DNA from: a virus
DNA: 64,000 nt
IMG/VR virus record: IMGVR_UViG_3300042691_015370
Location: 1-64,000 of that record
Strand: one strand, 5' to 3'
Position 1 is the stretch's first letter. Every line of letters starts with the position of its first letter. Positions 16,641 through 62,934 of this stretch are shown here, piece by piece. Under the pieces are notes generated by a model. It was not told the DNA's origin. It made no database searches and saw only the letters and a program-made list of their open reading frames with translations. Both the position numbers and the translations under genes were made by a program.

Positions 16641-16802
16641 CTGTCTGATCATTGGTGTGAGAGGTGCGGCGAGAAGTTTCAGCCGCTTCAAGCTAACTAC
16701 CACAACGGATTTGATGCAGACACTCTCTGCTCAGACTGTTGTGACCTTGCTAATGAGGAACAGTTTTACCTCAACGAAGTTCAAAGGTGTGGTGGCGAAT
16801 GA
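16641..16802 (+). CDS. Zinc-knuckle protein with CTG start or TAG readthrough
   Basis: Fifty-three residues: LSDHWCERCGEKFQPLQANY and later LCSDCCDLANEEQF. Two CxxC pairs make a clear zinc-binding protein, and the stop shares four bases (ATGA) with the macro-domain gene. No ATG, GTG or TTG exists in frame. CTG at 16641 stands seven bases after GGAGG and is the best start; the alternative is readthrough of the TAG at 16635. Confidence 0.6.
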   Translation: MSDHWCERCGEKFQPLQANYHNGFDADTLCSDCCDLANEEQFYLNEVQRCGGE

Positions 16803-17269
16803 TTGAGGTTATTGAACAGAACTTGCTAGAGATTCAGCGAGGCATTATCTGCCATCAAGTTAACACAAACGGTGTCATGGGTGCTGGGATTGCGTTGCAA
16901 ATCGCTCAGATGTACCCTCAGGTGCTGGATGAGTACCAGACGATGTGTCTAGAGTTCTTTGATGACGAACTGCTTGGTAAGGCTCAGATCATACAAGTTG
17001 ACGATGAGCTTTATGTAGCCAACCTGTTTGCACAGAGACTAGGGCGCACCAAGTACGGGCGAGCGACACTGTATGATCCCACCACAATGGCGTGGGACGA
17101 GGTATATCAATCCGCCTACGATCTAGGGTTCTGTGGATTCAACACCGCAGTGATTGATGTGTACATGCCATACATGATGGGATGTGGGCTTGGTGGTGGT
17201 GAATGGGACATCTACTCAACCATTGTTGACGTTCACTGCCCCGGAGTCATTGCCTGCAAACTTGTTTAG
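16799..17269 (+). CDS. Macro-domain protein
   Basis: A 156-residue protein of the ADP-ribose-binding macro fold. ICHQVNTNGVMGAGIALQIA near the N terminus is the characteristic N-x-x-G-x-M-G-x-G-I-A ligand loop, and MPYMMGCGLGGGEWDIY matches the second loop (GxGxGG-W). Family members bind ADP-ribose or hydrolyse ADP-ribose-1''-phosphate, which arises from tRNA repair, or remove ADP-ribose from targets. A counter-defence role against ADP-ribosylating or NAD-based defences is possible (inference). ATGA-coupled to the zinc-knuckle gene. Confidence 0.88.
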   Translation: MIEVIEQNLLEIQRGIICHQVNTNGVMGAGIALQIAQMYPQVLDEYQTMCLEFFDDELLGKAQIIQVDDELYVANLFAQRLGRTKYGRATLYDPTTMAWDEVYQSAYDLGFCGFNTAVIDVYMPYMMGCGLGGGEWDIYSTIVDVHCPGVIACKLV

Positions 17270-18122: not shown

Positions 18123-18435
18123 CGATATTGATGATATCGTTGAGCGAGTAAGAATGTGTGTAGCTGAGGCTGGTTATGATCCCATTTGGATCACACCAAT
18201 GCCGCCAGAAGCTCAAGAGCAGGGCTTTTACTTCGCTAACGAATACATGATGATTCCACATGATGTATGCTGGAGAGCACGAGAAATTGCCCTAGTAGGT
18301 GAACCCAAGTGCTTTAGCTGTTCGACTAGACACCTGAAGATGATCAAGCATAAAGAATGCAGAGCAGTACGACGACTTGAGTTGAACTGCGGCGCATACG
18401 AAGACAAGGAGACAAATGATCCCCACGAAGCCTGA
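18115..18435 (+). CDS. Hypothetical protein with CxxC
   Basis: A 106-residue protein; ATG 18112 is an equal alternative. Contains KCFSCSTRHLKMIKHKEC, a possible zinc site with three Cys and one His. Overlaps the deaminase and rIIA-like genes on either side. Confidence 0.6.
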   Translation: MTDDIDDIVERVRMCVAEAGYDPIWITPMPPEAQEQGFYFANEYMMIPHDVCWRAREIALVGEPKCFSCSTRHLKMIKHKECRAVRRLELNCGAYEDKETNDPHEA

Positions 18436-20461
18436 TGTGAAGGCAAACATTCACGGTCTGGAGACTCAGCAGTTCACCATCAAGGTGAACAACAAGAGTT
18501 TCCGGGTCCTGCTGGATGGCTTGTACACTGACAAGCCCCAGTCCATTATCCGAGAGCTTTGGACCAACGCTCTTGATTCCCATGTTGCTGCCGGTGTGGC
18601 CGATGAGCCGTTCCACTGCCAGCTTCCCACCTACATCGACCCTACCTTCACCGTTCGTGACTACGGCACGTCGATGGATCATCAGACTGTGATGAACGTC
18701 TACACGTCGTTGTTCGATTCGGACAAGGAAGATACCAACGAGCAGACCGGGTGTCTTGGACTTGGTTCCAAGTCTCCCTTCTCATACACTGACGCATTCG
18801 ACGTCTTTGCCTACTCTGGCACCGAGAAGCGGTTCTACCTCGCTGCGATGAATGATGATGGTATCCCTACCATTACTCACCTCAAGTCTGAGCCATGCGG
18901 TGATCCTCGTGGCATTGAGGTGCGGTTCCCGGTACAGACCCTCCATGTCACAGACTTCCAGCGTGCAGCCACCAAGGTTGCTATTGGCTTCGATGTCCGT
19001 CCCACCATTGTCGGTGGCGATGTTGAGCCTCCTGACGCAATCTTTGAGGCTGAGACGTTCCGTATCATGGCTCCGAACTCTTACATCGGTTCGGATCGTG
19101 GCTACGTTCGTCAGGGTCCGGTTGTCTACCCCATCCCCTACCAGTTCTTCCACAATCTGGATGAGGATGTCCGTTATCTGATTCAGGACGGTCACTCCTT
19201 CATTGTGGACGTGCCGATTGGTAGCGTTGAGTTCACCGCTAGCCGTGAGGCTTTGCAGTTGACCGATGCAACTACCAAGTACCTGACCACCGCTGTCAAT
19301 GAAGCCTTTCGTGATGTGCGAGAGACTGCCCTTGCTGACATCAAGGAGCAGGACTCGTACATGAACGCCTACAAGTCCTACAACGCTTGGGGCGAGTTCC
19401 TGCGACTTGGTGACATTGAGGCTCATGGCCGGATGATCTACGCCAATAAGACTGGTTTGATCCCGATCCTTAACAATGGCCCGATTCCCAAGATCATGCG
19501 TTCCGGTAGTCGTGGTCTGAGCGAGGTGTCGTGGTCGAGCAACGGTGAGATCTTCTTCAAGATTGATGACATTCCCAACATGCGGTTTGTGATCGACTCA
19601 CCGGCGATCAAGGCTCCCCGCAAGCGTAAGCGCTTCATGGAGTTCGCCAAGAAGAACAAGCTTGCCTACTGGCTGCACCATCCCACTGGCGAAGAGATCA
19701 TTCGTCTGATGCGACTCCTTGATCTGGACCGTGACCAGTTCATGAAGGTGTCTGATCTGGACGATGTTGATCCTCCTGAGCGTGACACTTACTCGTCCAG
19801 CACTGGCCGCAGCGTTGCGTCTGGTCTGTACAGCGTTGCTCTGCGACCCAGCAGTGTCGGTGATTTTCCGATCACTGACCGACCCTCTGAGATTCCTGAG
19901 GGTACGTCGTACTACTGGATGCCGATTGACAAGGCTATCGCCAGCGAGCAGATTTACCTTGAGGGTCTGAGCTACGTGCGCTTTGATGATCGTCAGAACT
20001 TGAAGATGTTCTTGCGACCACTGCACGCCTTCGGTGAGTACCGTCCAGTCTATCTGATGACGCCTCGTGCTCAGAAGAAGTACAGCCCAGACGACAATGA
20101 TCGTCTGGATGTTGCCTTCAAGGCAGTGATTCGGGATAACGCAGAGACTATCTGTGATATGCTGGAGATTCCTCGTTCGATGGACTTCGGTTACAACCGT
20201 TATGGTCGATCAATCATCGAGAAGATGGTTGCGAGCCATGATGGTTTCGATGAGGATTTGTGCAGTCTGGTTGTGCGATTCAAGCACACATTCAAGGACC
20301 TTGGGTTTGAGGATGCAGTTGCTCGTCGTGAGATTGTGGTCACGGATATCAAGGCTAAGTACCCTATGGTGTTCAATCCAGATGATCACGATGTGAAGCA
20401 GTACATCGAACTCATCGACTTTTTGGAAGAAGCAAACAACAACAAGGAGGATGGTAACTAA
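18416..20461 (+). CDS. rIIA-like protein (GHKL ATPase N terminus)
   Basis: A 681-residue protein. Residues 42-50 (RELWTNALDSH) form the N-box of the Hsp90/gyrase/MutL ATP-binding fold, followed by RDYGTSMD (D-x-G motif) and GCLGLGSKSPFSYTD (G2 loop). The long remainder resembles phage T4 rIIA, which with rIIB protects infected cells against a prophage exclusion system and is membrane-associated. AAGGAGACAA gives a strong start. It stands directly before its rIIB partner with two bases between stop and ATG. Higher GC codon use than the small genes before it suggests high expression. Confidence 0.85.
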   Translation: MIPTKPDVKANIHGLETQQFTIKVNNKSFRVLLDGLYTDKPQSIIRELWTNALDSHVAAGVADEPFHCQLPTYIDPTFTVRDYGTSMDHQTVMNVYTSLFDSDKEDTNEQTGCLGLGSKSPFSYTDAFDVFAYSGTEKRFYLAAMNDDGIPTITHLKSEPCGDPRGIEVRFPVQTLHVTDFQRAATKVAIGFDVRPTIVGGDVEPPDAIFEAETFRIMAPNSYIGSDRGYVRQGPVVYPIPYQFFHNLDEDVRYLIQDGHSFIVDVPIGSVEFTASREALQLTDATTKYLTTAVNEAFRDVRETALADIKEQDSYMNAYKSYNAWGEFLRLGDIEAHGRMIYANKTGLIPILNNGPIPKIMRSGSRGLSEVSWSSNGEIFFKIDDIPNMRFVIDSPAIKAPRKRKRFMEFAKKNKLAYWLHHPTGEEIIRLMRLLDLDRDQFMKVSDLDDVDPPERDTYSSSTGRSVASGLYSVALRPSSVGDFPITDRPSEIPEGTSYYWMPIDKAIASEQIYLEGLSYVRFDDRQNLKMFLRPLHAFGEYRPVYLMTPRAQKKYSPDDNDRLDVAFKAVIRDNAETICDMLEIPRSMDFGYNRYGRSIIEKMVASHDGFDEDLCSLVVRFKHTFKDLGFEDAVARREIVVTDIKAKYPMVFNPDDHDVKQYIELIDFLEEANNNKEDGN

Positions 20462-20463
20462 CC

Positions 20464-21408
20464 ATGACTTCAAAGTACCCTAGCATCATGAGTCCTCGGA
20501 CTCTTTCTGTCATCATTGATGGTGACACCTACCATGTCAATCGTCCCGATGAGGACGGTGACACTACCCATTGGGACCGTGTAAAGGCGGCTCTCAATGA
20601 TCCAACCATCACCGACGAAGAGATGTTGCGACTCGTCTCCCCGGCACGAGCAGTGCAGAATGCTCTTGATAACATCACCGATGATGTCAAGGATGTGTAT
20701 GCTGCTGCTGGTCTGGTGCGTCTTGAGGGCGGTGTTCTCTACTTCGATGACGAAGAGGTGAACAACACTCTGTCTGAGCGTATCATTGACATTCTCAATG
20801 AGGGTCTGGATGTGTTGCCGTGGATCAAGTTTGCGGATAACGTGTTCAAGAACCCTGCGCCATTCTCACGAGATGAGCTTTACCTTTTCTTGGAGAATGC
20901 CAACCTTCCCATCACTGAGGATGGTTGCTTCTTGGCGTACAAGAATGTCCGCAATGATTACAAGGACATCAACAGCGGCACGTTCGACAACAGCATCGGT
21001 GCTATCTGCGAGATGCCCCGAGAGGAAGTTGACCCCGATAGGTACCGCACCTGCTCGGCTGGTCTGCACTTCTGCTCCAAGGACTACCTCCCGCACTTCA
21101 GTCACTACGCTGGTGGTCACACGATGGTCGTGAAGATCAATCCGACCGACGTGGTGTCTATCCCTGCTGACTACAACAACAGCAAGGGCCGCTGCTGGCG
21201 CTACGAGGTGGTCGGTGAGATCCCCACCACCCGTGCTCAGACTCACCGCTGGAAGCCTCTGGTGGACGCTGAGTGGACCGCTGAGGTCACTGACCCTCAG
21301 TGGGATGAGCCTGAGGGTGTGACGGTGGCTGAGATTGAGGATGTCGCCCCAACAGCCCCGGAGCAGAAGAAGGGTAACCGCTTCAAGAAGTGGCTGCGCC
21401 GCAACTGA
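20464..21408 (+). CDS. rIIB-like protein
   Basis: A 314-residue protein. The C-terminal half holds the rIIB signature: LAYKNVRNDYKDINSGTFDN followed by GAICEMPREEVD and TCSAGLHFCSKDYLPHF. T4 rIIB works with rIIA; in many phages the domain occurs without known activity. It is the last gene of this transcription unit: a terminator hairpin follows 26 bases after the stop. The tail is basic (KKGNRFKKWLRRN). Confidence 0.85.
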   Translation: MTSKYPSIMSPRTLSVIIDGDTYHVNRPDEDGDTTHWDRVKAALNDPTITDEEMLRLVSPARAVQNALDNITDDVKDVYAAAGLVRLEGGVLYFDDEEVNNTLSERIIDILNEGLDVLPWIKFADNVFKNPAPFSRDELYLFLENANLPITEDGCFLAYKNVRNDYKDINSGTFDNSIGAICEMPREEVDPDRYRTCSAGLHFCSKDYLPHFSHYAGGHTMVVKINPTDVVSIPADYNNSKGRCWRYEVVGEIPTTRAQTHRWKPLVDAEWTAEVTDPQWDEPEGVTVAEIEDVAPTAPEQKKGNRFKKWLRRN

Positions 21409-23117: not shown

Positions 23118-23343
23118 GGATAATGTTATGAAGGCAGTTGATGCCGCTAGAGATTCAGCTATCTCAGCAATTGGTGCATCTGACAGGCTTTGGGAAGAGT
23201 TTCTGGACAGCACCAACACAGATCCAGACAATCCAGACGCTGAATCACTGTTTGGTTCATGGCTCGACTTCCAGAAAGATTTGGCCGCAGAGTATAGAGC
23301 AGAGCAGGTTGCATGGGAGGAAGAAAGAGGATATGACTACTAA
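23107..23343 (+). CDS. Hypothetical helical acidic protein
   Basis: Seventy-eight residues, nearly all helix, net strongly negative (DSTNTDPDNPDAESLFGSWL). Starts inside the previous gene. Unknown role. Confidence 0.6.
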   Translation: MSLEDNVMKAVDAARDSAISAIGASDRLWEEFLDSTNTDPDNPDAESLFGSWLDFQKDLAAEYRAEQVAWEEERGYDY

Positions 23344-24283
23344 ATCACTGTTTGACCAGTATTCTCAGCATCTCAAGGATGCTGAGATCCCCGCACTTGG
23401 ATATCTGGCGTGGTATCATGTGCCAGATTCGTCTCAGATCGTCCACAAGGACTTCCTGAAGCTCGTAGAGACATCCGACGCACCTATCAAGACCCCTAAC
23501 GTTCCGAAGGCAGCAGACGTGTTCAGGCGTGCCTGTAACAACGCTAAGATGCTCAAGGTTCGTTCGGATCACAACACCTACTACAACTACACCATGCGTG
23601 ACGCTGGCTATGATGAGGGTTTTGTGTTCCGGCGCATGGTTGAAGAGGAACTCGACAACAAGAACCACAAGCTTGGTTTCCGTGTGCTCGGATTGGTAAC
23701 CTTTGCCAAGAAGGGTGTTTCAGCGGCATACAGTCGAGAGATTGATGCAGATGATCCCGCTGTTGCGTATTGGGATGCTATGAAGGGCAAGGTGGATGAG
23801 TTTCTCTCCACCAAGATGCTTCATCTGCCAGCTATCGCTGTTCGTGAAGCAACTCGCAAGGGTCTGGAGATTCATCTTCTCGGCACCCGTGTGCGGCCCT
23901 CTGGTGGCGTCTACTTTGTCGGCATGGACAAGGGCGACAAGCTTGAGGCTCTTGACTACGTGATCAACCATGTGCCAGAATCCTCTTTCCACATTCTGCC
24001 CCTCGTTGACGATGCTCGTCAGCGTGAGATGCTGAAGCAAGCGTTTGAGGATGAGTCCATCGAAGAGACGACTCGTATGGTTGGTGAGATCACCGATCTA
24101 CTCAAAAGCGACAGCAACATCCCCGCCCCGACATTCCTCGCCTATCAAGAGCGTTACAACTTCCAGAAGCGTAAGCTCAAGGAATACTCAAATCTACTGA
24201 GTGATGCGCTGGACCGTTCACAGAACGCTCTCGACATTTGTAACAAGCAGATTGTTGCACTACTCGACAAGGCATCAGATTGA
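23333..24283 (+). CDS. DUF6744-like protein
   Basis: A 316-residue protein behind GGAAGAAAGAGG, starting MTTKSLFDQYSQHL. N-terminal GYLAWYHVPDSSQI, a middle with VPKAADVFRRACNNA and a helical C-terminal third fit what I recall of the phage family DUF6744, of unknown function. It sits upstream of the recombination genes. The family assignment is from memory. Confidence 0.65.
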   Translation: MTTKSLFDQYSQHLKDAEIPALGYLAWYHVPDSSQIVHKDFLKLVETSDAPIKTPNVPKAADVFRRACNNAKMLKVRSDHNTYYNYTMRDAGYDEGFVFRRMVEEELDNKNHKLGFRVLGLVTFAKKGVSAAYSREIDADDPAVAYWDAMKGKVDEFLSTKMLHLPAIAVREATRKGLEIHLLGTRVRPSGGVYFVGMDKGDKLEALDYVINHVPESSFHILPLVDDARQREMLKQAFEDESIEETTRMVGEITDLLKSDSNIPAPTFLAYQERYNFQKRKLKEYSNLLSDALDRSQNALDICNKQIVALLDKASD

Positions 24284-25591: not shown

Positions 25592-26482
25592 ATGGCAGAT
25601 GCATCTGCACTTAGACCACAAGATTGGGATGACTATATCGGGCAGGAGACACTCAAGAAGCGTCTGAAGATTTCTATCAACGGTGCGCTCAGTCGTCAGA
25701 CGTACCTAGATCCAGTGCTACTTGTTGCACCACCCGGATACGGCAAGACATCCCTTGCCAAGCTCATTGCAGACGAACTCATGGAAGACTTCCATGCGTA
25801 TGTCATGCCACTCAAGCCCAAGGCTTTGCAGAAGGCAATTCTGGAGAACAAGGGAGTCATCTTCTTGGACGAGCTTCATCGTCTACCGAAGAAGGATCAG
25901 GAGATCCTCCTGTACCCGCTTGAGGACAAAGAGATCCACTTCGATGACGGCAAGGTCTTCAAGCTAGAAGAGCCACCCACATTCGTTGGTGCTACTACTG
26001 AGCTACGTGATCTCATTGAGCCGCTACGTGATCGTTTTACTCACAAGCCAAAGTTTGATCTGTACACAGATCAGGAGATGGCCCGTATCGTAAGGCAGAT
26101 GGCTCGTGGCGTTGGTATCAGGAACCTGTCCGACGAAGACGCTCTAGCTCTCGGCAAGGCATCGGCTGGCGTACCTCGTCAGGCTAGGACGCTGGTGCAG
26201 ATGGCTCGTGACCTAGGTACCACCAATCCCAACCGTGTACTCAGCGCTGCTGGTATCACACCGGATGGTTTGACTGAGGATCACGTAGACTACGTGCTAG
26301 CTCTGGACAAGCTCGGACACATCGCTGGTGTTGACGTTCTTGCTAACTACACTGGTCAGCCCAAGGATGTCATCGTGAAGCTGGAGAAGCTCTTGCTTCG
26401 CAAGGGCATGATCGACTACTCTCAGAAGGGTCGAGTTCTCACCACCAAGGGCTACAAGATTGCCAAGTCCATTGATCAGTAA
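25592..26482 (+). CDS. ruvB: RuvB-like Holliday-junction branch-migration ATPase
   Basis: A 296-residue AAA+ protein with RuvB order of motifs: RPQDWDDYIGQ at the N terminus, Walker A APPGYGKTS (46-54), Walker B VIFLDELHR (89-97), sensor 1 GATTE (133-137), the arginine-finger region LRDRF (145-149), then the RuvB lid GVPRQARTL and a C-terminal winged helix. RuvB hexamers drive branch migration at Holliday junctions. No RuvA or RuvC gene is visible, so it may use host RuvA or act alone. Slightly shorter than bacterial RuvB. Directly followed by an HNH gene (TAATG overlap). Confidence 0.9.
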   Translation: MADASALRPQDWDDYIGQETLKKRLKISINGALSRQTYLDPVLLVAPPGYGKTSLAKLIADELMEDFHAYVMPLKPKALQKAILENKGVIFLDELHRLPKKDQEILLYPLEDKEIHFDDGKVFKLEEPPTFVGATTELRDLIEPLRDRFTHKPKFDLYTDQEMARIVRQMARGVGIRNLSDEDALALGKASAGVPRQARTLVQMARDLGTTNPNRVLSAAGITPDGLTEDHVDYVLALDKLGHIAGVDVLANYTGQPKDVIVKLEKLLLRKGMIDYSQKGRVLTTKGYKIAKSIDQ

Positions 26483-26765: not shown

Positions 26766-27560
26766 ATGGCACGACGTGCATATGTTGGCGACTTTACATT
26801 TCGCCTAGGCCCAATCACTACTCGTGGTAAGCTGATGTCTATCCGCAAGGATACCGAGACAAAGCTGCACCTCATGACTCCCGAGGGTCTGCCGGTGAAC
26901 ATCGTCTACCGGGACGCCAACGAGAAGATCTGGACCAAGCCCGAGCTTGGTCGAGGCAAGGAAGATGAAGACGGTAACCTTATCCCCGTAGATTTGACGG
27001 CGGTCGAGGAAGCCAAGAAGTCAGCGCTCGTGGCTAACGTCATTGATCTGAACGTTCATCCTCGTGAGGATGTTGATGACTTCTTGTTCCCCGACAAGTC
27101 CAACGCCTACGTGTTCCTGCCAGTTATCCGTAACTCGTCCAACAAGGTCATTGATGACCCGGTGAATGACAAGTGGTATGAGGTTCTCAACAACCTCGTG
27201 CGTGATCCTAAGCTTGCTTTTATCGGTCGCTGCAACCTGAGCGGTCACGAGGGCATGTTCCGACTGTCCATCTACCGTGGTCACGTTGTACTTCAGAAGC
27301 AGTTGTTTCCTGAGGAAGTGAACGAGTTCGAAGTCATCAGTCCCAAGATTTCTCGGGTCGAGAAGGCTAAGGTCGCTAAGCTGGCCGAGGCTCTCGTCAA
27401 GCCCTTCAATCCTGAGGACTACCCGAACGAGATCACCCAGCGTGTTGCCGAGGCAACGTCCGCTGACTTTGATCCCGCCAAGCTCAAGGCACGCATTGAC
27501 GCCGACCGTGAGGTTGATGTAACCTCCGCTCTCGACGCTGCGCTGGCCGAGTTTGTGTAA
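26766..27560 (+). CDS. ku: Ku-like DNA end-binding protein
   Basis: A 264-residue protein, the size of bacterial Ku. N terminus MARRAYVGDFTFRLGPITTR parallels the Ku beta-barrel start; PREDVDDFLFPDKSNAYVFL matches the region before the bridge; YEVLNNLVRDPKLAFIGRCN and the following strands match the conserved Ku core; the C-terminal FNPEDYPNEI echoes F-D-P-x-x-Y of bacterial Ku. Ku rings thread onto double-stranded ends and recruit ligase. Phage Ku is known from mycobacteriophages Omega and Corndog. A DNA ligase gene lies 2.6 kb downstream on the same strand. Confidence 0.78.
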   Translation: MARRAYVGDFTFRLGPITTRGKLMSIRKDTETKLHLMTPEGLPVNIVYRDANEKIWTKPELGRGKEDEDGNLIPVDLTAVEEAKKSALVANVIDLNVHPREDVDDFLFPDKSNAYVFLPVIRNSSNKVIDDPVNDKWYEVLNNLVRDPKLAFIGRCNLSGHEGMFRLSIYRGHVVLQKQLFPEEVNEFEVISPKISRVEKAKVAKLAEALVKPFNPEDYPNEITQRVAEATSADFDPAKLKARIDADREVDVTSALDAALAEFV

Positions 27561-27655: not shown

Positions 27656-27991
27656 ATGATTACACCAAGAGCGCACAACACTGCTGGCAGACAGTCAGGC
27701 AGCGATGGCGGGCTAGGTCACGTCTACACCGTCTATGACGGTGCCCAAGGCATTCATTCACACTGCCCTCCGTGGATGGACTACGCAGCATGTGGCGACA
27801 CTGACGTGGACATGACCAAAGATCCGCCGAACGCTCAACAGCGAGCCGTCTGCGAGTCCTGTCCTGTGCTAGAGTCCTGCCGAGCAGAACTCTTCAGAGA
27901 TCTACCCAAACACATTGTTGGAACGTGGGCTGGCATTGCTAGCAATGAGTGGGTAACAATACGCAAGCAATACATCAGCGATGTAGCCTGA
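27656..27991 (+). CDS. WhiB-family iron-sulfur regulator 1
   Basis: A 111-residue protein with the four cluster cysteines of WhiB proteins: C46 (YAACGDTD), C66 and C69 (CESC), C75, then GTWAG (89-93) in place of the usual G-[VI]-W-G-G turn and a basic C-terminal tail. WhiB proteins bind a 4Fe-4S cluster and the sigma-A region 4 of the host RNA polymerase; phage members such as WhiB of TM4 repress host WhiB genes. The ATG lacks a ribosome binding site and follows the structured RNA by 12 bases. Confidence 0.88.
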   Translation: MITPRAHNTAGRQSGSDGGLGHVYTVYDGAQGIHSHCPPWMDYAACGDTDVDMTKDPPNAQQRAVCESCPVLESCRAELFRDLPKHIVGTWAGIASNEWVTIRKQYISDVA

Positions 27992-28000
27992 GGGAGTGAT

Positions 28001-28228
28001 ATGGGTATCGGTGGACACATGCTTGGCGCAAAAAAGCTGAAGCAACTTTCAACCCGTAGCACCTTACCACTTAACCGTGCATGCCATCGCAACGGATATT
28101 GCGAAGGCGTGGTATGGACAGAAGAAAGTTGCATACATTATTCGATTGATTTCAAAACCGGAGAGCATGTCATCATTGAGAATCCAATGCACTGGTACAC
28201 ATGCCACCCCAAAAATAGGAGTGTTTAA
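28001..28228 (+). CDS. Hypothetical Cys/His protein
   Basis: Seventy-five residues behind GAGGGAG. RACHRNGYCEGVVW and further Cys/His (ESCIHYS, WYTCHPKN) may form a zinc site. Coupled (TAATG) to the NusG gene, so it may act with it. Confidence 0.6.
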   Translation: MGIGGHMLGAKKLKQLSTRSTLPLNRACHRNGYCEGVVWTEESCIHYSIDFKTGEHVIIENPMHWYTCHPKNRSV

Positions 28229-28803
28229 TGACAAACCCATATGATTTGCCCGGTAAGTGGTACGTACTGAACACCAAGGCAAACCACGAGAACAAGGTGA
28301 AGCAAGCCATTGAGACTCGTGCAAAGTCCATGATGGTTGATGATCGTATCTATGATATCCACATCCCGGTACATGACGTAACTGAGATCAAGAAGGGCAA
28401 GAAGCAGACCGTTGAGAAGAAGACTTTTCCGGGTTACTTGCTTGTCCGATGCGACCTAAACGATGAGTGCTACGGCGTACTGCGACATACTCCCGGCGTC
28501 ACAGGCTTCCTAGGTGGTAGCGATGTGCGTTCGGATCGTGTTGAGGATAAGGCTACTCCACTTACTCGACGTGAGGTAGAGCGCTTCGTGGTCTTCGACA
28601 AGGATGATGTAGACATTGCTGCCCCAGCAGTGATCGACTTTGAGCTTGACGAACTAGTGACCATCAACGAGGGTCCGTTCTCAGGCTTCAATGGTCAGGT
28701 GATTGACATCAATGCTGATCAGTTGACGCTCAAGGTGCTGGTCAATATCTTCGGTCGTGAGACTCCTGTTGAGATTGGATTTGGCAAGGTCACAAAGACA
28801 TGA
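28228..28803 (+). CDS. nusG: NusG-like transcription factor
   Basis: A 191-residue protein with both NusG domains. The NGN domain holds KWYVLNTKANHENKVKQAIE and the FPGYLLV strand (67-73) that contacts the RNA polymerase clamp; HTPGVTGFLGG follows as in bacterial NusG. The KOW domain is residues 141-191 (DELVTINEGPFSGFNGQVID). NusG suppresses pausing and couples polymerase to ribosome, Rho or antitermination complexes. A phage copy could reprogram termination on its own terminator-rich genome (inference). Confidence 0.9.
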   Translation: MTNPYDLPGKWYVLNTKANHENKVKQAIETRAKSMMVDDRIYDIHIPVHDVTEIKKGKKQTVEKKTFPGYLLVRCDLNDECYGVLRHTPGVTGFLGGSDVRSDRVEDKATPLTRREVERFVVFDKDDVDIAAPAVIDFELDELVTINEGPFSGFNGQVIDINADQLTLKVLVNIFGRETPVEIGFGKVTKT

Positions 28804-30192: not shown

Positions 30193-30977
30193 TTGACGTT
30201 CAGCGTCCAACAGAGATTCGTGAGAGTGAACTCCAAGCCTATCTACATAATGATACTTTTGCTCTCTCGCAGAAGATGGATGGGCACAGAATGATTGTCA
30301 AAACTGGCCCAATTAGGTGTTACACACGACAAGGTTTGGAGCGAGATGTTCCAGCCTCCGTCGCCTCCGCTCTGGCCGGAATCGACACCGAGTGGATCTT
30401 CGACGGCGAAATCCTTGACAACACTTACCACTGTTTCGATATACTCAAGACTTCCAAGGGCGACATCCGAAAGTGGGACTGGAGCCAGCGACAAGCGATT
30501 CTTCAAGCCGCCCTTTCGAAGCGTGAAGGTATCTATGTGGTACAGCAAGTGTACGGTACGCAAGACAAGACAGCATTCTTTGAGAAGTGCGTGAACGCAT
30601 CTGTCGAGGGGGTTGTGTTCGTCAAGATGGACTCACCTTACCGAGATGGCAAGGGACGTAACAGTCTGAAGTACAAGCTTGTCAAGGATGTTGATTGCGT
30701 AGTCACGGACAGGGGGATTGACGGCAAGGACAATCTGGAACTATCAGTGTTCAGGGATGGTCAACCCTTTGTTGTCGGCAAGGTATCTGCACTCACCGGA
30801 GATGGCCCCAAGGTCAATGTCGGTGATGTGGTAACAGTCAGTGCCCTGTACGCAACACCTACAGGGAAGCTATATCTTCCAGTGAAACCAAAGATCAGAA
30901 CCGACAAGTCTCCACACGAGTGTGACTATGCACAAATCGAAGTCATACAAACCAACAAGACAATCATCGAACCGTAA
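30189..30977 (+). CDS. lig: ATP-dependent DNA ligase
   Basis: A 262-residue minimal ligase. Motif I KMDGHR has the adenylated Lys29; FDGEI (71-75) is motif III; EGVVFVK (140-146) motif IV; LKYKLVK (160-166) motif V; the C-terminal 90 residues form the OB-fold domain with KPKIRTDKSPHE. It seals nicks in double-stranded DNA with ATP. No polymerase or nuclease domain of bacterial LigD is attached. With the Ku-like protein it could make a two-part end-joining system. Confidence 0.92.
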   Translation: MIDVQRPTEIRESELQAYLHNDTFALSQKMDGHRMIVKTGPIRCYTRQGLERDVPASVASALAGIDTEWIFDGEILDNTYHCFDILKTSKGDIRKWDWSQRQAILQAALSKREGIYVVQQVYGTQDKTAFFEKCVNASVEGVVFVKMDSPYRDGKGRNSLKYKLVKDVDCVVTDRGIDGKDNLELSVFRDGQPFVVGKVSALTGDGPKVNVGDVVTVSALYATPTGKLYLPVKPKIRTDKSPHECDYAQIEVIQTNKTIIEP

Positions 30978-31008
30978 GTACGAACGTAAGTTACAAGAGA
31001 GGCGTAGA

Positions 31009-31281
31009 ATGGATCAGGAATCATCGCAAGATGAGAAGCAGAAGCTTATCAAAGAGGTTGAGAAGCTGCGTCAGGAACTAGAGCACGAGATTGTTCTTGA
31101 AAGTTGGGACGACTGCAACGAGATCGTAGGCGCACTTGAAGCCTTCGGAATCCAGTCAGTGATCTGCAAGACCAAGGTGCCAAGCACACAGATTGACAAG
31201 GACTTTGATATCCTACCTGCTGTTGCTGTACCATCTACATTCTTTGACGATTACAAGAAACTACTCACCAAGCTTATCTAA
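31009..31281 (+). CDS. Hypothetical coiled-coil protein
   Basis: Ninety residues starting MDQESSQDEKQK behind GAGAGG. A coiled-coil helix (KLIKEVEKLRQELEHEIVLE) then an alpha/beta part. An ATG at 30928 would add a basic N terminus but overlaps the ligase by 50 bases. Eight bases before the MoxR gene, so perhaps a partner. Confidence 0.6.
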   Translation: MDQESSQDEKQKLIKEVEKLRQELEHEIVLESWDDCNEIVGALEAFGIQSVICKTKVPSTQIDKDFDILPAVAVPSTFFDDYKKLLTKLI

Positions 31282-31289
31282 GGAGACAA

Positions 31290-32495
31290 GTGACTACTCA
31301 AACCCTGCCGCAGAAGTTCCGTGCTGTTGAACAGGATGTCAATCAGGTTGTATTGGATCGTGTAGACGAGGTTCACTCAGCGATGCTGTCGCTGGTCGCT
31401 CGTCAGCATATGTTCCTGCTAGGTACTCCCGGCATTGCCAAGTCAATGCTTTTTGATCAGGTCGTGGCACGTATTGTTGGGGCCAATGCCTTCAAGTGGC
31501 AGCTAACCAAGTTCTCGGTTCCCGAGGAAGTCTTCGGTGGTCCTGACCTACTGACCCTGAAGGACAGTGGCGTCTACCGCAGAATCACCGAGGGCAAGCT
31601 ACCGACCGCACACATCGGCTGGATTGATGAGGTGTTCAAGGCTAACTCATCCATCCTCAATGCTTTCCTACTGCTCATCAATGAGCGTCAGTTCATCAAC
31701 CCCGGTGATGACCCCAACGTTCCACTGATGAGTCTCTTCACCGCTTCGAACGAGATGCCACAGAGCACCGAGCTAGAGGCACTGGTAGACCGACTGCTGA
31801 TCCGTCACATCGTGCATGAGCTAACCGACCCCGACTTGCTCGTACAGATGCTTGCCATGGAGCCACGGGAGCCTGAGGCATTCCTGACACTGGACGATCT
31901 GGAGCAGGCTCAGCAGGAGGCCCAGCAGGTTGTCATCGGTGACAATGTGTATGAGGCAATGCTAGAGCTTGCTACCAAGCTGCGTAAGGAAGGCATTACG
32001 GTCACCGACCGACGCCTCAAGCAGAGCATGTCTATCATCAAGGCTGAGGCATACCTTGCTGGTCGAGACGTTGCAGAGGTTGTGGATACCAAGCCTCTGG
32101 TCTATGTCATGTGGCGTGACCCCTCACACTTTGAGACGGTACGCAAGATGGTACTTGATCTTGCTGACCCCATTGAGCGTGAGGTCCTGAAGCTACGGTC
32201 TGAGCTTGAGAAGGCTTACGCCGAGTTCAAGGCCGTCATGGATGATGAGGACAACAAGCACACTCGTGCCAAGCAGGCTATGCTCACCTATGGGTACTTC
32301 AAGAAGGCTCGTGCCGAGTACTCAGCGCTTGCCGAGCAGCAGCGTGAGAGTGGCCGTCACTCCAAGGCTCTTGAGGATCTGCGGCGGCGACTCAAGGAGT
32401 TGGCACCCATCATCCTCTCAGATGGTGTTGGTGTTGACGACGACGACGCTGACGAGCTAGACAAGGCTATCGAAAACCGATCCGAAGGGTTCTGA
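31290..32495 (+). CDS. MoxR-type AAA+ ATPase (RavA-like)
   Basis: A 401-residue AAA+ protein with GTG start behind AAGGAGA. Walker A GTPGIAKS (45-52), Walker B IGWIDEVFKA (109-118), sensor 1 TASNE (151-155) and VDRLLIRH as arginine finger mark the MoxR/RavA clade. A C-terminal coiled region (ELEKAYAEFKAVMDDEDNKH) replaces the RavA triple-helical domain. MoxR ATPases work as chaperones or remodelling factors with VWA-domain partners that present the substrate. The partner gene starts in its stop codon (TGATG). Confidence 0.9.
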   Translation: MTTQTLPQKFRAVEQDVNQVVLDRVDEVHSAMLSLVARQHMFLLGTPGIAKSMLFDQVVARIVGANAFKWQLTKFSVPEEVFGGPDLLTLKDSGVYRRITEGKLPTAHIGWIDEVFKANSSILNAFLLLINERQFINPGDDPNVPLMSLFTASNEMPQSTELEALVDRLLIRHIVHELTDPDLLVQMLAMEPREPEAFLTLDDLEQAQQEAQQVVIGDNVYEAMLELATKLRKEGITVTDRRLKQSMSIIKAEAYLAGRDVAEVVDTKPLVYVMWRDPSHFETVRKMVLDLADPIEREVLKLRSELEKAYAEFKAVMDDEDNKHTRAKQAMLTYGYFKKARAEYSALAEQQRESGRHSKALEDLRRRLKELAPIILSDGVGVDDDDADELDKAIENRSEGF

Positions 32496-34105
32496 TGGGA
32501 TTCCTTGAAAGCTTTTTGAACAACCGACAGGTACGCAAAGATCCAAGCACGAAGTACTGTGTAGACAGTAACAAGTGGGATCGTCAGACCAAAGAAGAGA
32601 TCGAAGAGCAAGTAAAGGACTATGTGCTCGCCACCAACCGTCTTACGGACAAGGTGGATACTGGCTACGAAGCCATGAGTGATACCCTGCTCACACTCTT
32701 TAAGGCAGCGCCAAAGCTACGTGACCCGAAGGAGATCAGACCATCATATCTGGTCAACCACCGAGTCATGCAGGAGATGTTCGAAGTCAAGGAGCTACAG
32801 GATGCCCGCCGCAATTCGGTGGGTGATCCTGTAGCTACTGGCCTAGCAGCAGCAACGCTAGAGCCTGAGCTAGAGATCATCTTCGACAAGCTAGAGAAGG
32901 CTCGTGAGGATGCTCAGCGTATCGAACAGATGCTAGAGCAGCTAGAAGCTCAGGCCGAAGACCTAGAGTCAGTCATGCAGTTGGCTAATGCTGATACTGA
33001 AGAGACTGAAGGGTCCACTGATTGGCAGGAGCAGGCGGCACAAATCGAAGAGGCTATGGAGGCGCTGAAGCAGCAAATTGAGGCAGCGCAGAGTGGTTTA
33101 GAGCAAGAGCTAGATGGTCAGAGTCACATGATCAAGGAGTCCTTGGAAGAGGCTCTGGGTGACATGAACAAGAGCAACAGTGCTCTACAGGATTTTGATT
33201 CATGGGGACTGACCCCCGGCTCGTTGAAGAAGATGAATGCCAAGTCACGTATGGAGTTGGCAAGCAAGCTTCGCACACCACAGTTCAAGCGTATGGCTGA
33301 AGTGATCGGCAGAATGCAGCGCATTGCGTTCACTGCACAGACACAGAAGGCTGACTACGCAATGGAAGAGGTGTACGAACTTGAGTCAGGCAACGATCTG
33401 GCACGTCTTGTTCCCACCGAGCTACTTGCACTCAACAATGATCTGCTGGTCTACGACTTCTTGCATCGCTTTGTTGAGCGGTCACTTACACAGTATGCGC
33501 TAGAGGGTGAAGAGACTGTCAATCGTGGCGGCATCATTGCTCTACTCGATAGCTCATCGTCTATGACTGGTGATCGTCTGTGCTGGTCCAAGGCTATTGC
33601 TCTGGCACTGCTGAAGATCGCCAAGATGCAGGGCCGTCCGTTCCATGCCATCGAATTCTCCAGCCCCGGACTGTTCGTATCATATGACTTTGATACAACC
33701 CAAGATGAGTTGATGCTCCGTGTTACCCATAAGAACACGGAGCGTTTTCATTACGGTGCAGATGCCATCATCGCATTTGCTGAAGGTGGACTGACCGGAG
33801 GCACATGCTTTATGACGCCGTTCGGTGAGGCACTCGACCTTATGGACGCAGAGTTCAGTGCGACCGGCGCTACAAAGGCTGATATCATCTTCCTGACCGA
33901 TGGGCAGGCCGGTGTGAGTCAGCAGTTTTTGGAGCGTTTTAAGCAAGAGCAGGAGCGCATGGGATTCAAGGTGTTCGGCATTGCGATCGGTGCAGATCCA
34001 GAGTCTGAGCCTATGAATACCTTGTGTGACAGCAACGTGATCACACTGAAGCGTCTCACGAACGAGCGAGACATGCGGCCGCTCTTTAGCTCCGTAGGGG
34101 GATAG
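32495..34105 (+). CDS. VWA-domain partner of MoxR ATPase (ViaA-like)
   Basis: A 536-residue protein. Residues 1-330 are helical with a long coiled coil (RIEQMLEQLEAQAEDLESVM). The von Willebrand A domain follows: MIDAS DSSSS starting at D352, the Thr in GGTCFMTPFG, and FLTDGQAG near residue 470, so the metal site is complete. This matches the ViaA partner of RavA or the VWA proteins encoded beside moxR genes. TGATG coupling implies a fixed stoichiometry. Such pairs occur in bacteria and some large phages; their job in infection is unknown. Confidence 0.88.
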   Translation: MGFLESFLNNRQVRKDPSTKYCVDSNKWDRQTKEEIEEQVKDYVLATNRLTDKVDTGYEAMSDTLLTLFKAAPKLRDPKEIRPSYLVNHRVMQEMFEVKELQDARRNSVGDPVATGLAAATLEPELEIIFDKLEKAREDAQRIEQMLEQLEAQAEDLESVMQLANADTEETEGSTDWQEQAAQIEEAMEALKQQIEAAQSGLEQELDGQSHMIKESLEEALGDMNKSNSALQDFDSWGLTPGSLKKMNAKSRMELASKLRTPQFKRMAEVIGRMQRIAFTAQTQKADYAMEEVYELESGNDLARLVPTELLALNNDLLVYDFLHRFVERSLTQYALEGEETVNRGGIIALLDSSSSMTGDRLCWSKAIALALLKIAKMQGRPFHAIEFSSPGLFVSYDFDTTQDELMLRVTHKNTERFHYGADAIIAFAEGGLTGGTCFMTPFGEALDLMDAEFSATGATKADIIFLTDGQAGVSQQFLERFKQEQERMGFKVFGIAIGADPESEPMNTLCDSNVITLKRLTNERDMRPLFSSVGG

Positions 34106-34348
34106 ATGAGTGCAGTTGATGATGATCCTTTTGATTCCATAGTTGATGGTCTAGACCTGAATGTTGATGATGAAGTTATCAACGTGCAGACACTCTCAAC
34201 CAAGGACCTCATAGATATGAGGGATGACATCACAGAAGAGATCACCAAAGCTAAGAGTCTGTATAAGAACCATACAGAATGGCAACGTGAACAACACAGC
34301 CTTCGGGCTGCGATCATCGTAGAGTTATCAAGAAGGGGTTTCTCTTGA
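34106..34348 (+). CDS. Hypothetical acidic protein following MoxR/VWA
   Basis: Eighty residues starting MSAVDDDPFDSIVDGLDLN directly after the VWA stop. Acidic disordered N terminus and a helical hairpin C-terminal half. Possible adaptor of the MoxR/VWA complex by position only. Confidence 0.6.
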   Translation: MSAVDDDPFDSIVDGLDLNVDDEVINVQTLSTKDLIDMRDDITEEITKAKSLYKNHTEWQREQHSLRAAIIVELSRRGFS

Positions 34349-34653
34349 GCAAGCAAGCAACTAGCAGCCAGCGTAATGCGGCCAAGCACCTGTCGAATGA
34401 CCACCTGTACTGCCGTACCATTGGTCACAGATGGAACCGACTCAGCCAGATTCAGTTCACACTACCCAAGACTAGATGGGGCAAGCCAATTGCCCTTGAG
34501 TGTGAGGGCTGTGGCATGTATAGAATTGATCTGATCGATGCTCGTGGTCAGGTATCTTACCGGATGTACCGTCAGCCTCACGGCTATCGTATTCCTGCTC
34601 AGGATACACCACGACGTGACCTGTTGCGCCTAGAGCTACTCGACAGAAGCTGA
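34345..34653 (+). CDS. Zinc-ribbon protein
   Basis: A 102-residue basic protein with TTG start overlapping the previous stop. HLYCRTIGHRWN and LECEGCGMYRIDLID give a C...H...CxxC zinc ribbon, a pattern typical of phage proteins with RTxGHxW. Probably nucleic-acid binding (inference). Confidence 0.65.
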   Translation: MSKQATSSQRNAAKHLSNDHLYCRTIGHRWNRLSQIQFTLPKTRWGKPIALECEGCGMYRIDLIDARGQVSYRMYRQPHGYRIPAQDTPRRDLLRLELLDRS

Positions 34654-34664
34654 GGGTAGTACGG

Positions 34665-35015
34665 GTGAAGAAACAGAGCCTCAAAGGTATCCAGAAACAG
34701 TGCATCAACTGTGACAGGGTACTGTCTGGACGATGTTACATTTACAATCAGCATAGTCCAGACAAGCTGCGAGACTGCTGTCGCACCTGTGACTCCTACA
34801 GACCCAAGGGTTACCCCCCACTTTCTGCCGTACTCGCTTTTGAGTCTGAGATGCATGACATCATCGAAGAGGCTAAGCAGATCATTGAAGACCCCGAGAG
34901 GCAACGTATAGCTTTTGAGTCGTTCGTCTATGAAGAGATGCAGCGACGTGAATTACTCAACACTTGGAAGCCGCCAGTGTGGCTACATAAGACATCTATA
35001 AGGAAGATGAAATGA
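34665..35015 (+). CDS. Cys-rich protein
   Basis: A 116-residue protein, GTG start. CINCDRVLSGRCYIYN and CCRTCDSYRPKG supply five to six Cys, probably one or two zinc sites, before a helical C-terminal half. Unknown function. Confidence 0.65.
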   Translation: MKKQSLKGIQKQCINCDRVLSGRCYIYNQHSPDKLRDCCRTCDSYRPKGYPPLSAVLAFESEMHDIIEEAKQIIEDPERQRIAFESFVYEEMQRRELLNTWKPPVWLHKTSIRKMK

Positions 35016-35308
35016 TCATCAAGTACCGTGACCTGCATGGCAAATGGAATTGGCTCTCCAATGTGGGGGAGGCCACGGCGCTTGGGTATATGGATGAGCC
35101 ACCGGAAGGTGCTGTCCCTCTCGGAGTTGCAAGTGGTAAGCCGTATGTCATGAGTCTATGTGTCAAGAATGAAAGCCGCACAGTAGCTATCTATGCACAA
35201 GAGGCTTACCTGACAGATGACCAGACCGGCAACACTATCGAGATTCTGATCCCAAGGAACGGTAATGGGAAGACAAAGGCGCACACTACATCAGCATCGA
35301 AAAGCTAA
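35012..35308 (+). CDS. Hypothetical beta protein
   Basis: Ninety-eight residues, ATGA-coupled. Beta strands with KPYVMSLCVKNESRTVAIYA; disordered basic tail. No family recognised. Confidence 0.6.
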   Translation: MIIKYRDLHGKWNWLSNVGEATALGYMDEPPEGAVPLGVASGKPYVMSLCVKNESRTVAIYAQEAYLTDDQTGNTIEILIPRNGNGKTKAHTTSASKS

Positions 35309-35444
35309 CCGCAAGGTTGACAAGTTGATTGACGGTATACTCAGCGAACTACAGTCACAAAGAGAACAGCAGCACGATACCGACCAGTTGGAGGATGAAA
35401 GCTACGGCAATAATAGCCATGCTACCCCACTGGACGGTTCGTGA
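35265..35444 (+). CDS. 59-residue protein with very basic start
   Basis: MGRQRRTLHQHRKANRKVDK followed by an amphipathic helix and a polar tail. Starts within the previous gene behind AAGGA and ends 11 bases before the converging - strand gene. The Arg/His-rich start suggests nucleic-acid binding. Confidence 0.55.
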   Translation: MGRQRRTLHQHRKANRKVDKLIDGILSELQSQREQQHDTDQLEDESYGNNSHATPLDGS

Positions 35445-36954: not shown

Positions 36955-37374
36955 ATGATGAATACCACCGAAGTAAGCACCAAGCGTACCCGTAAGAACC
37001 CCGTGACCCTGAGCGGCATCAGCGCAATGGCTGAGTGGAAGATCGTGAAGGATTACTTGGACAGCCTCAACGGCACCCGCAAGCAGGGGTCGCTGAAGGA
37101 GTTCCGTAAGCCTCAGGAGCAGCTAGCTCGTGTTGAAGCGGAGCTTGAGACTGTGACCGACCCTGTGCGTCGTCTCGACCTAGTGCAGCGCCGCATGGAC
37201 ATCAAGCACTGGATCGATGGTGGAGCCTCTGAGGATCACCTACAGGAGCTTGAGGATCGGTTCGTGGACATCGCTAGCTCGTACAGCTACCGTAAGCGCA
37301 TCTCCTACGCTGCATGGCGTGAGATCGGTGTGCCCGCTCGTGTCCTCAAGGCAGCAGGTATCGGCATCAAGTGA
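36955..37374 (+). CDS. Conserved actinophage protein, possible DNA-binding
   Basis: A 139-residue basic helical protein. TLSGISAMAEWKIVKDYLDS, a charged middle, and YSYRKRISYAAWREIGVPAR followed by VLKAAGI, a motif common in actinophage proteins encoded near regulators (recalled). The last part looks like a helix-turn-helix. ATG 36958 is an equal start. Codon use suggests high expression. Confidence 0.7.
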   Translation: MMNTTEVSTKRTRKNPVTLSGISAMAEWKIVKDYLDSLNGTRKQGSLKEFRKPQEQLARVEAELETVTDPVRRLDLVQRRMDIKHWIDGGASEDHLQELEDRFVDIASSYSYRKRISYAAWREIGVPARVLKAAGIGIK

Positions 37375-37751
37375 AGATCACATCCCTAACCAAGCATGGC
37401 GTACTGTACGCATACAACAAGGGATGTAGGTGTGAAGAGTGTGAAGGGCTAGGTAGTGTCTATGACCTAGCTGCCAACTACAATCGGCACAGAGAGGCTG
37501 TCATTCCTGTTGGATGGGAGAAATCAGCTAGGTGCCGTGGCATGGACCCTGAAATCTTCATTGATCCATCCAATGAAGCACAGGCAAGACGAGTGTGTGC
37601 TGAGTGTGAGGTGAAAGAGACGTGTCTTTCGTTCTCCATCCAGACCAAGAACCTTGCTGGCGTCTACGGCGGCGTGAATGAAGTCAACCGTCTGCGTGCA
37701 TACAGAGTATGGCAGAGACGTAATAGCAAAGCTGTGAGAGAGACTGTGTGA
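37371..37751 (+). CDS. WhiB-family iron-sulfur regulator 2
   Basis: A 126-residue protein, GTG start in a GTGA overlap. WhiB cysteines C55, C76, C79, C85 and the GVYGG turn (97-101) are complete, followed by a basic tail with RVWQRR. It has an extra N-terminal part with GCRCEECEG (C19, C21, C24), common in actinophage proteins that start HG...Y..GCRC..C, so this is a fusion of that unit with WhiB. Confidence 0.88.
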   Translation: MKITSLTKHGVLYAYNKGCRCEECEGLGSVYDLAANYNRHREAVIPVGWEKSARCRGMDPEIFIDPSNEAQARRVCAECEVKETCLSFSIQTKNLAGVYGGVNEVNRLRAYRVWQRRNSKAVRETV

Positions 37752-60901: not shown

Positions 60902-61097
60902 CGTTACCTCTTACAATATTGATATGAATACTATTACCGACCAAGATGACTGAACGATCACCGAACATGCTCGTCAACTTGTCGGCAATGCCCTTTAGTT
61001 GTTCGTATGGTGCCTGTGGATCATCAATATGCACAATCAACTTGTCATCAGGTCCAACAACACCAATACTATTGAGTATTACCTCTTCATCCATCAT
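60888..61097 (-). CDS. Hypothetical small protein
   Basis: Sixty-nine residues from MMDEEVILNSIGVVGPDDKL behind AAAGG. Beta-alpha-beta with VHIDDPQAPYEQLKGIADKL, ferredoxin-like. Overlaps exonuclease and Sak4 genes. Function unknown. Confidence 0.6.
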   Translation of the reverse strand: MMDEEVILNSIGVVGPDDKLIVHIDDPQAPYEQLKGIADKLTSMFGDRSVILVGNSIHINIVRGNDGTI

Positions 61098-62934
61098 GTA
61101 CCTTTGCTTCTGGTGGTGAATAAATAGGACATATGTCGCTATAGGAACAGATGCCACAGGTGTCTCCAGAGATATCTGGAACATAGACGTCAAGCTCAAC
61201 TGCTTTAGCAATCTGATCTAGACAGAACAACATGCGGTCATAATCTTGTTGTGACCTTGCACCTACAGGATATTCCTTGGCGTTTCTGAGGTCATACCAT
61301 ACTCCGACTATCTCATGGTCCTTGTACTGCTCGTACAACTCTTCACCATTGGCAAAGCCTTTGTACTTTTCCTTCTCTGGCTCATAACCGCACCAAAACT
61401 GCTTCTGCTGAACAGCGTATGTGTAGGCGCTGTTGCCAGTGAAATATACCGTACCATTGCGCCTAGCTAGCCAAGTGCCATTACTAGTAGTCGGGCACCA
61501 TACTTTGCCAGTATATGTGACTATAGATTGCTTCTTTTTTGAAGGTATAAAGTTAGAGCGTCCCTCTTTAAGAACGAGAGTCCATATATCAGAATCTGCA
61601 TAAACACCTTTCCCGCCAAGCTTACGATGAGATAAACTAGTTCTGATGCCAGCTAGTTGACACGCAATGGCGAAGGCATCCAACCGAGAACGCAGAGACT
61701 GTGTAATGGTCCTTACTCCCGTAGGTCCTTTGTGACCATCGGCACGGATAGATACATCAATAAACAACCGAAGCTGATCCTCGGTTAAAGAGGTAATAAA
61801 ATCAGAGGACAAAACCTTGTCTTGCAAATCTTCAAAGGCCACATAAAGCTCAAGTGAGGCTGTTCTATTCAAGTAGAACCTGTTGGCGTCATCAGCGGGA
61901 ACAACTCGCCACGCCGGAAATGGCAGAGACTGCCTTCCATTCCTCATGCATTCTGATGGTGGTCCCCATAAGCTTTCAAGAGTTTTGTATATATCCTCAT
62001 AATCCGAGCCACTCTTTTGCGCTAAGGACAATGACCCGCCAGCCCTAACGTGACCCTCAGTCCAAAACCAACCAACCAAAGCAACAAAGTCATCATCATA
62101 TTTAGCAGTATCTGGCAGATTTGAAACCCTACGTCCACACGGAATCGAATCACGGCTAGTTAGGGCATCTGAGGTTACTACTCGCTTTTCTTTCCTCCAG
62201 CTACCACGAGATGAGATGGTATGATTAACGTACCATCTGTGATTCTTGGTCGTTAAAGAAGAGTGCGACAAACCCTCAATTGATACAAGCTCTTGATCAA
62301 TAGCATCAAAGACATTCACACTAAGGGCAGGTTGCCACTCCGCTAGGTCAGTTTCTGCATTGTAGGTAAGAACATCCTCGCCCTCAACAACATCTTGGTA
62401 CGTTTTCCAGCCTCTACGGGTCAAAATTTGGGTTTCGCTATCAGCGCAGAACTGGATGTCGAAGCCTAAGTTCGTTTTGTTGGGCCGCTGACCAGTCTTG
62501 AGGTCCACTACCTTCAGTTGCTTGGAACCTTTGACTGTTTCAAGGATGTCTACAATCCCAGAAAGTTGATGGTCACCAATGTCAACACAGAACCTGTGCT
62601 CTGTGGCGATCACCTCACGCTCAACCCACTTGCAGTTCTCGTGATACTCACGAATGAACTTCAGCCCACGTTCCCGATAGTCCTCATGTGAGGTTCTTGG
62701 AAAATAGAACTTCGGCTCAATGTCGAACTCTTCTGGGTTGTCCCAAGCATACAGGAAAGAATGCTCTGCATCCTCAAGCTTCTTTGTGTTGTTGTAGATC
62801 TCCAGAGCCATATGCACAGCAGTACCAAAAGAGGCAGCAGCATTCTGAATCTGTGGCCGTTGCTCTACATAATTGAATCGCCACTGCAAGCTGCAATTCA
62901 TGAAGGAACGGATCATAGATGGGCTAAACTTCAT
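61087..62934 (-). CDS. Cas4/RecB-type exonuclease interrupted by an intein
   Basis: A 615-residue precursor. Exteins (residues 1-162 and 502-615) make a 276-residue PD-(D/E)XK nuclease: RSFMNCSLQWRFNYVEQ, D129 in SGIVDI, DLKTG (D144, K146), and the QxxxY motif IQF-SAYTYA. A Cas4/AddB-like 4Fe-4S cluster is formed by C14 and the C-terminal CGICSYSDIC. It should degrade one strand at DNA ends to feed Sak4 or RecA. The intein splits the QxxxY motif, so splicing is required for activity. Confidence 0.9.
   Translation of the reverse strand: MKFSPSMIRSFMNCSLQWRFNYVEQRPQIQNAAASFGTAVHMALEIYNNTKKLEDAEHSFLYAWDNPEEFDIEPKFYFPRTSHEDYRERGLKFIREYHENCKWVEREVIATEHRFCVDIGDHQLSGIVDILETVKGSKQLKVVDLKTGQRPNKTNLGFDIQFCADSETQILTRRGWKTYQDVVEGEDVLTYNAETDLAEWQPALSVNVFDAIDQELVSIEGLSHSSLTTKNHRWYVNHTISSRGSWRKEKRVVTSDALTSRDSIPCGRRVSNLPDTAKYDDDFVALVGWFWTEGHVRAGGSLSLAQKSGSDYEDIYKTLESLWGPPSECMRNGRQSLPFPAWRVVPADDANRFYLNRTASLELYVAFEDLQDKVLSSDFITSLTEDQLRLFIDVSIRADGHKGPTGVRTITQSLRSRLDAFAIACQLAGIRTSLSHRKLGGKGVYADSDIWTLVLKEGRSNFIPSKKKQSIVTYTGKVWCPTTSNGTWLARRNGTVYFTGNSAYTYAVQQKQFWCGYEPEKEKYKGFANGEELYEQYKDHEIVGVWYDLRNAKEYPVGARSQQDYDRMLFCLDQIAKAVELDVYVPDISGDTCGICSYSDICPIYSPPEAKVHDG
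61432..62448 (-). mobile_element. Intein with LAGLIDADG homing endonuclease
   Basis: Residues 163-501 (339 aa). Block A CADSETQILTRRGWKTYQDV starts with the nucleophile Cys; block B is LTTKNHRW (T, H); the endonuclease has two LAGLIDADG-like helices, ALVGWFWTEGH and LFIDVSIRADG, each with an acidic residue; block F/G ends VYFTGN before Ser. The penultimate His is Gly, as in a minority of inteins. The nuclease looks intact. Confidence 0.9.

Follow-up and report, generated by a model that had tools for sequence, protein, structure and literature searches.

Which protein does a phage-borne MoxR–VWA pair work with, and on what does it act? The question is raised by a stretch of 64,000 nucleotides (hereafter the window), bases 1–64000 of the IMG/VR virus record IMGVR_UViG_3300042691_015370 (144,887 bases), in which the gene of a MoxR-family AAA+ ATPase is followed by that of a protein with a VWA domain. 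In the first-pass annotation of positions 31009–35444, made from the letters of the window, the two had been described as a RavA–ViaA-like pair that may assemble or dismantle a host or phage machine together with the products of the genes on either side. The identity of the pair was upheld by the present analysis, and a different partner was found. The conserved partner of the pair is DUF6744 (domain of unknown function 6744), encoded in the window 7 kb upstream and outside 31009–35444, and the trio of MoxR, VWA and DUF6744 is well supported by gene linkage.

Identity of the MoxR–VWA pair

Judged by sequence, the pair is a distant homologue of Escherichia coli RavA–ViaA. The ATPase gene starts with GTG, preceded by the ribosome-binding site AAGGAG, and its product was matched by the Pfam families bpMoxR (PF20030, 142.6 bits, E = 1e-41) and AAA_lid_8 (58.8 bits, E = 5e-16), by the NCBIfam RavA model (NF010054, 183 bits, E = 1e-53, residues 4–312 only) and by the solved RavA structure PDB 6q7l (E = 5e-45). 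The Walker A and B, sensor and Arg-finger residues were all present and conserved. No match to the C-terminal part of RavA was obtained, the model alignment stopping at profile position 322 of 498; in E. coli RavA this part contains the LARA domain, which binds LdcI. The VWA protein was matched by the NCBIfam ViaA model (NF008230) at 59 bits and by phrog_24053 at E = 2e-54. In its AlphaFold2 model (mean predicted local distance difference test score, pLDDT, 82.8) the N-terminal half was helical and the VWA domain lay at the C terminus. The metal site (MIDAS; DxSxS-T-D: D352, S354, S356, T437, D469) was complete, and its positions varied little or not at all among 23 relatives. Since the scores with the RavA and ViaA models lie far under the equivalog cut-offs (681 and 500 bits, respectively) and the C-terminal part of RavA is unmatched, the proteins are classed as distant homologues and not as RavA or ViaA equivalogs. 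Pfam and NCBIfam scans gave no CobS match to the ATPase and no CobT match to the VWA protein. Both genes (31290–34105) were intact and coupled as originally described, the ATG of the VWA gene overlapping the TGA stop of the ATPase gene by one base.

Close relatives were not found by blastn among 50,697 phage records, nor by single-protein peptide patterns in virus or genome contigs. The nearest pair in named phages was that of Moorella phage MTATph1 (39% identity for the ATPase, 30% for the VWA protein). Scanning with a profile of nine VWA sequences yielded 61 virus loci; a MoxR gene was present in 54, and in the remaining seven the VWA gene lay near the edge of the locus. Many virus records are fragmentary. 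Matches in Campylobacter phages A11a and A18a were left aside as probably chromosomal kup-ravA-viaA-asnA DNA. The unverified A11a record (MG065691, L010) reads as enterobacterial chromosome with this gene order, probably through contamination, and its ravA and viaA were confirmed by NCBIfam.

Linkage of the pair to DUF6744

At the first related loci, the gene after the VWA gene resembled the open reading frame (ORF) at 23138–24283 of the window, and all of these proteins were DUF6744. Virus contigs were searched blind with a hand-made degenerate DNA motif that encodes RPSGGV[YF]FV of DUF6744. Five contigs were matched, one falsely (L020); in all four with a true DUF6744, a MoxR gene was located at most 3.5 kb from it and was adjoined by a VWA gene. 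Two-sequence DUF6744 patterns gave no matches, and an alignment of seven DUF6744 sequences contained no stretch conserved enough to serve as a search pattern.

Plasmids (n = 72,556) gave the same association. DUF6744 was present in 16 and a ViaA-like VWA match in 60, and all 16 were among the 60; they represent six genera, hence fewer than 16 independent events. The trio lay within a few kilobases in nine of the ten plasmid loci opened, and plasmid trios were found in Rubrobacter, Brevibacillus, Alicyclobacillus, Streptomyces and Nocardia. At the tenth locus, from Subdoligranulum, DUF6744 and VWA were about 43 kb apart, a wider displacement than in the window. When virus records were chosen by VWA alone, 27 of 49 had a match to the Pfam model of DUF6744 (PF20529) anywhere in the record, 26 of them above the cut-off and displaced copies included, as in the window; these are Pfam numbers, which are quoted because our own iterative profiles count DUF6744 more generously. 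All neighbours were also compared across the first ten related loci, leaving out reading-frame shadows of the three genes, and no family except MoxR, VWA and DUF6744 was common to more than three loci.

The DUF6744 protein and its absence from one clade

The window copy of DUF6744 scored 84.3 bits with PF20529 (E = 1e-23; Pfam gathering cut-off 27), and the ATG at 23333 has a purine-rich stretch upstream. AlphaFold2, run with 22 aligned sequences (mean pLDDT 87.6), predicted an alpha/beta part at the N terminus, then a stretch of five strands, and three long helices at the C terminus. A Foldseek search with this model found no solved structure at E < 0.01. Viral predicted structures did match, the top one being from haloarchaeal virus HVTV-1 (E = 3e-15); the HVTV1_25 protein, of matching length (383 residues), exceeds the PF20529 cut-off at 69.5 bits. 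The AAA+ and VWA genes of HVTV-1 are located about 15–20 kb from its DUF6744 gene, and Druskaviridae carry CobS/CobT (PMC8651126). Through HVTV-1 the link may thus extend, as co-occurrence, to another MoxR–VWA class. No effector domain was recognised in DUF6744 by Pfam scan, and the term DUF6744 appeared in no paper of the literature searched.

At 17 of 21 compared loci with no local DUF6744, a reverse transcriptase (RT) was encoded downstream of VWA (L051, 9930–10835; L052, 9793–10695; L053, 9766–10689; and 14 further loci). The gene beside VWA in such phages had been considered as a diverged DUF6744, which was ruled out by its identity as an RT. One RT scored 228.5 bits with the retron St85 RT model (cut-off 235), and a search of eight RT loci with Rfam found no known retron RNA. 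In a VWA tree, 16 RT rows and one other row formed one group (Shimodaira–Hasegawa-like approximate likelihood ratio 96), and DUF6744 rows occupied most other branches; the tree is a quick one, with long branches and unrooted, and the direction of the change between RT and DUF6744 is not readable from it. Tentatively, the trio might be an ancient AAA+ remodelling system specific to mobile elements and spread, in Bacillota and Actinomycetota, over both phages and plasmids; DUF6744 might then be a new fold, replaced in one clade by a retron-type RT. If so, the RT in place of DUF6744 would imply a machine that can swap clients and whose target is a nucleic-acid–protein complex.

Proposed function

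We give a probability of about one half to the reading that MoxR, VWA and DUF6744 form a three-part RavA–ViaA machine of mobile elements, which remodels a DNA-maintenance complex and has DUF6744 as its client or adaptor. By analogy with E. coli RavA–ViaA and with NorQ–NorD, the MoxR protein would form an ATP-driven ring on which the ViaA-like protein would dock by its helical part, and the MIDAS of the VWA domain may grip the client or target. E. coli RavA and ViaA bind physically through the N-terminal domain of ViaA (PMC9489729), and the MIDAS of NorD is required for acting on the target and dispensable for NorQ binding (PMC9976466). DUF6744 would be the third component, most likely a dedicated client or a client-bringing adaptor, for which it is the natural candidate because its gene hardly occurs without the pair in the phages and plasmids surveyed. 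The idea of a remodelling machine with a dedicated partner, put forward in the first-pass annotation, is retained in this form, with DUF6744 in the place that had been given to the adjacent genes.

The context of the trio suggests that the target is most likely a DNA replication, repair or maintenance complex encoded by the element, rather than the virion. Among 132 neighbour proteins, the recurrent Pfam families were uracil-DNA glycosylase (4), DNA polymerase A (3), exonuclease domain (3), amidase (2) and GmrSD (2), and ligases, DnaB, RuvB, ribonucleotide reductase (RNR) and deoxynucleoside kinase occurred singly; the tally is descriptive and was made without a background set. A Nocardia plasmid of 96.7 kb carries the trio, a relaxase and genes for type IV transfer (T4SS) but no annotated virion gene, which speaks against a common role of the trio in virion assembly, although the gene table of this plasmid is incomplete and many of its genes are hypothetical.

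Several observations weigh against this three-part machine. In about half of the phage records selected by VWA, no DUF6744 was detectable, and the pair can therefore work without it. The DUF6744 gene of the window is not adjacent to the pair, and in Druskaviridae (HVTV-1) DUF6744 accompanies, at a distance, a pair of CobS/CobT type. The DNA-maintenance target, moreover, is a reading of gene neighbourhood.

The client is usually what defines a MoxR–VWA pair. A constant third protein, common to unrelated phages and plasmids, offers a handle on the role of such pairs in mobile elements, which plasmid systems in culturable bacteria make testable; conversely, the trio gives a context to DUF6744. 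The trio also questions the published assumption that phage MoxR–VWA pairs serve virion assembly.

Alternative explanations

The main rival to the DNA-maintenance machine is a conflict system, the trio acting in counter-defence or inter-element exclusion, which we regard as possible but rather doubtful. It would fit the occurrence on both phages and plasmids, the retron-type RT in place of DUF6744 in one clade and the rIIA/rIIB-like genes that closely precede the DUF6744 gene of the window, and published conflict systems (PMC7159879) likewise consist of MoxR–VWA plus a third protein. However, neither the ATPase nor DUF6744 was matched in a defence library, where the VWA protein had nothing beyond weak coiled-coil hits, and DUF6744 has neither a recognised effector domain nor a known fold.

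Virion assembly, with the pair as a chaperone in the folding or assembly of head or tail proteins, has already been proposed for the MoxR-vWA proteins of archaeal virus ATV and of group 2.2 jumbo phages (PMC7824862), and ATV has an annotated MoxR-type structural protein. A holin and amidases do occur among the 25 commonest Pfam families of the 132 neighbours, but no capsid, tail or terminase family does. The tail (tape-measure) and terminase genes of the phage in the window lie 46–78 kb from the pair, on the opposite strand, and on the Nocardia plasmid the trio is accompanied by relaxase and transfer genes, with no virion gene annotated. Confinement to viruses with linkage to virion genes, the pattern expected of such a chaperone, was not seen for the trio; the terminase profiles PF04466 and PF03237 lacked the sensitivity needed for classifying the surveyed contigs. 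Virion assembly is accordingly thought unlikely.

Insertion of a cofactor or metal, for instance into RNR, might be envisaged by analogy with CobS–CobT. The DUF6744 gene closely follows that of the RNR large subunit in two unrelated viruses, MTATph1 (L002, 1819–5293) and HVTV-1 (L119, 5957–10966), and CobST is carried by Druskaviridae (PMC8651126). These two are the only surveyed loci with this linkage, however; the RNR gene of the phage in the window is about 84 kb from the pair, and the pair itself is of RavA–ViaA and not of CobST type, which makes this role improbable.

Flanking genes and genome setting

In the first-pass annotation the ORFs at 30922, 34106, 34345 and 34665 had been taken as a coupled set of partners (table 1). 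They do exist, in tight succession, and the 34345 and 34665 proteins contain cysteine-pair (zinc-type) motifs and have weak PHROG matches. A dedicated set was not supported. In the survey of co-conservation that had been proposed for them, covering about 70 related loci, homologues of the 30922, 34106 and 34665 ORFs were absent at E < 0.01, and the 34345 ORF had a single weak match (E = 3e-4), away from the pair. The flanking ORFs thus have no homologues at related pairs, the result on which the annotation itself had proposed to give these partners up. That they and the pair make up one phage-specific set is therefore very hard to sustain, despite a gene order that is tight and partly overlapping.

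Table 1. Positions in the window of the trio and of the genes flanking the pair.
Feature	Coordinates	Strand	Basis or remark
MoxR-family AAA+ ATPase, RavA subfamily	31290..32495	+	bpMoxR, AAA_lid_8, RavA model, PDB RavA
ViaA-like protein: helical N-terminal domain and C-terminal VWA	32495..34105	+	ViaA NF008230, phrog_24053, AlphaFold2
DUF6744 protein, third component	23333..24283	+	PF20529; ORF open from 23138
Coiled-coil ORF	30922..31281 (start first given as 31009)	+	Outside conserved module
Small acidic protein	34106..34348	+	Outside conserved module
Small cysteine-containing protein, phrog_4480	34345..34653	+	Outside conserved module
Small zinc-type protein, weak Lar-like match	34665..35015	+	Outside conserved module

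The record is a large tailed phage, as follows from the gene content of its two halves: rIIA-like, rIIB-like, RuvB-like, NusG-like and DNA-ligase genes in the half covered by the window, and genes for a terminase-like large subunit, a tape-measure protein of 2,999 residues, a sigma factor and RNR in the other. The rIIA-like (18416–20461) and rIIB-like (20464–21408) genes are located a short distance upstream of DUF6744. Between DUF6744 and the pair, a RuvB-like AAA+ protein is encoded at 25592–26482 and a weak Ku-like match was obtained at 26766–27560; in L044/L100, L093 and L096, too, a RuvB-like gene occurs close to the trio. A phage-encoded NusG-like protein with a KOW motif is located at 28228–28803. 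Elsewhere in the window, the ORF at 61087–62934 looks like an intein-interrupted nuclease and that at 16787–17269 reads like a macrodomain protein, and the putative small cysteine-rich WhiB-like proteins at 27656–27991 and 37371–37751 hint at an actinobacterial host.

Comparison with known systems

In the MoxR-vWA ternary conflict systems (Kaur et al. 2020, PMC7159879), MoxR and vWA are likewise joined by a constant third protein. In those systems it is VMAP, FtsH or a protein of beta-propeller type, and effectors are present, whereas here it is DUF6744; no VMAP, FtsH or beta-propeller component with effectors was found in the scanned genes around the pair and around DUF6744. CobS–CobT of Druskaviridae and cyanophages and the MoxR-vWA-peptidase systems of jumbo phages are also virus-borne AAA+/VWA pairs, and HVTV-1 has in addition a DUF6744 homologue; they differ in belonging to other AAA+/VWA subfamilies and in their metallopeptidase-like N-terminus.

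In the plasmid trios of the genera named above, MoxR, VWA and DUF6744 are close together as well, and the difference is that they are plasmid-borne; no published description of them was found in the literature searched. Moorella phage MTATph1 has DUF6744, MoxR and VWA in one stretch (CDS0119, CDS0115 and CDS0114), but the genes are annotated merely as hypothetical proteins and an ATPase, and the trio has gone unremarked. With E. coli RavA–ViaA the pair shares a RavA-subfamily MoxR ATPase, a two-domain VWA protein, adjacent genes and a conserved MIDAS. It differs in the unmatched C-terminal part of RavA and in scores far below both equivalog cut-offs, and pairs of the type found in the window are carried by mobile elements, with DUF6744 as partner.

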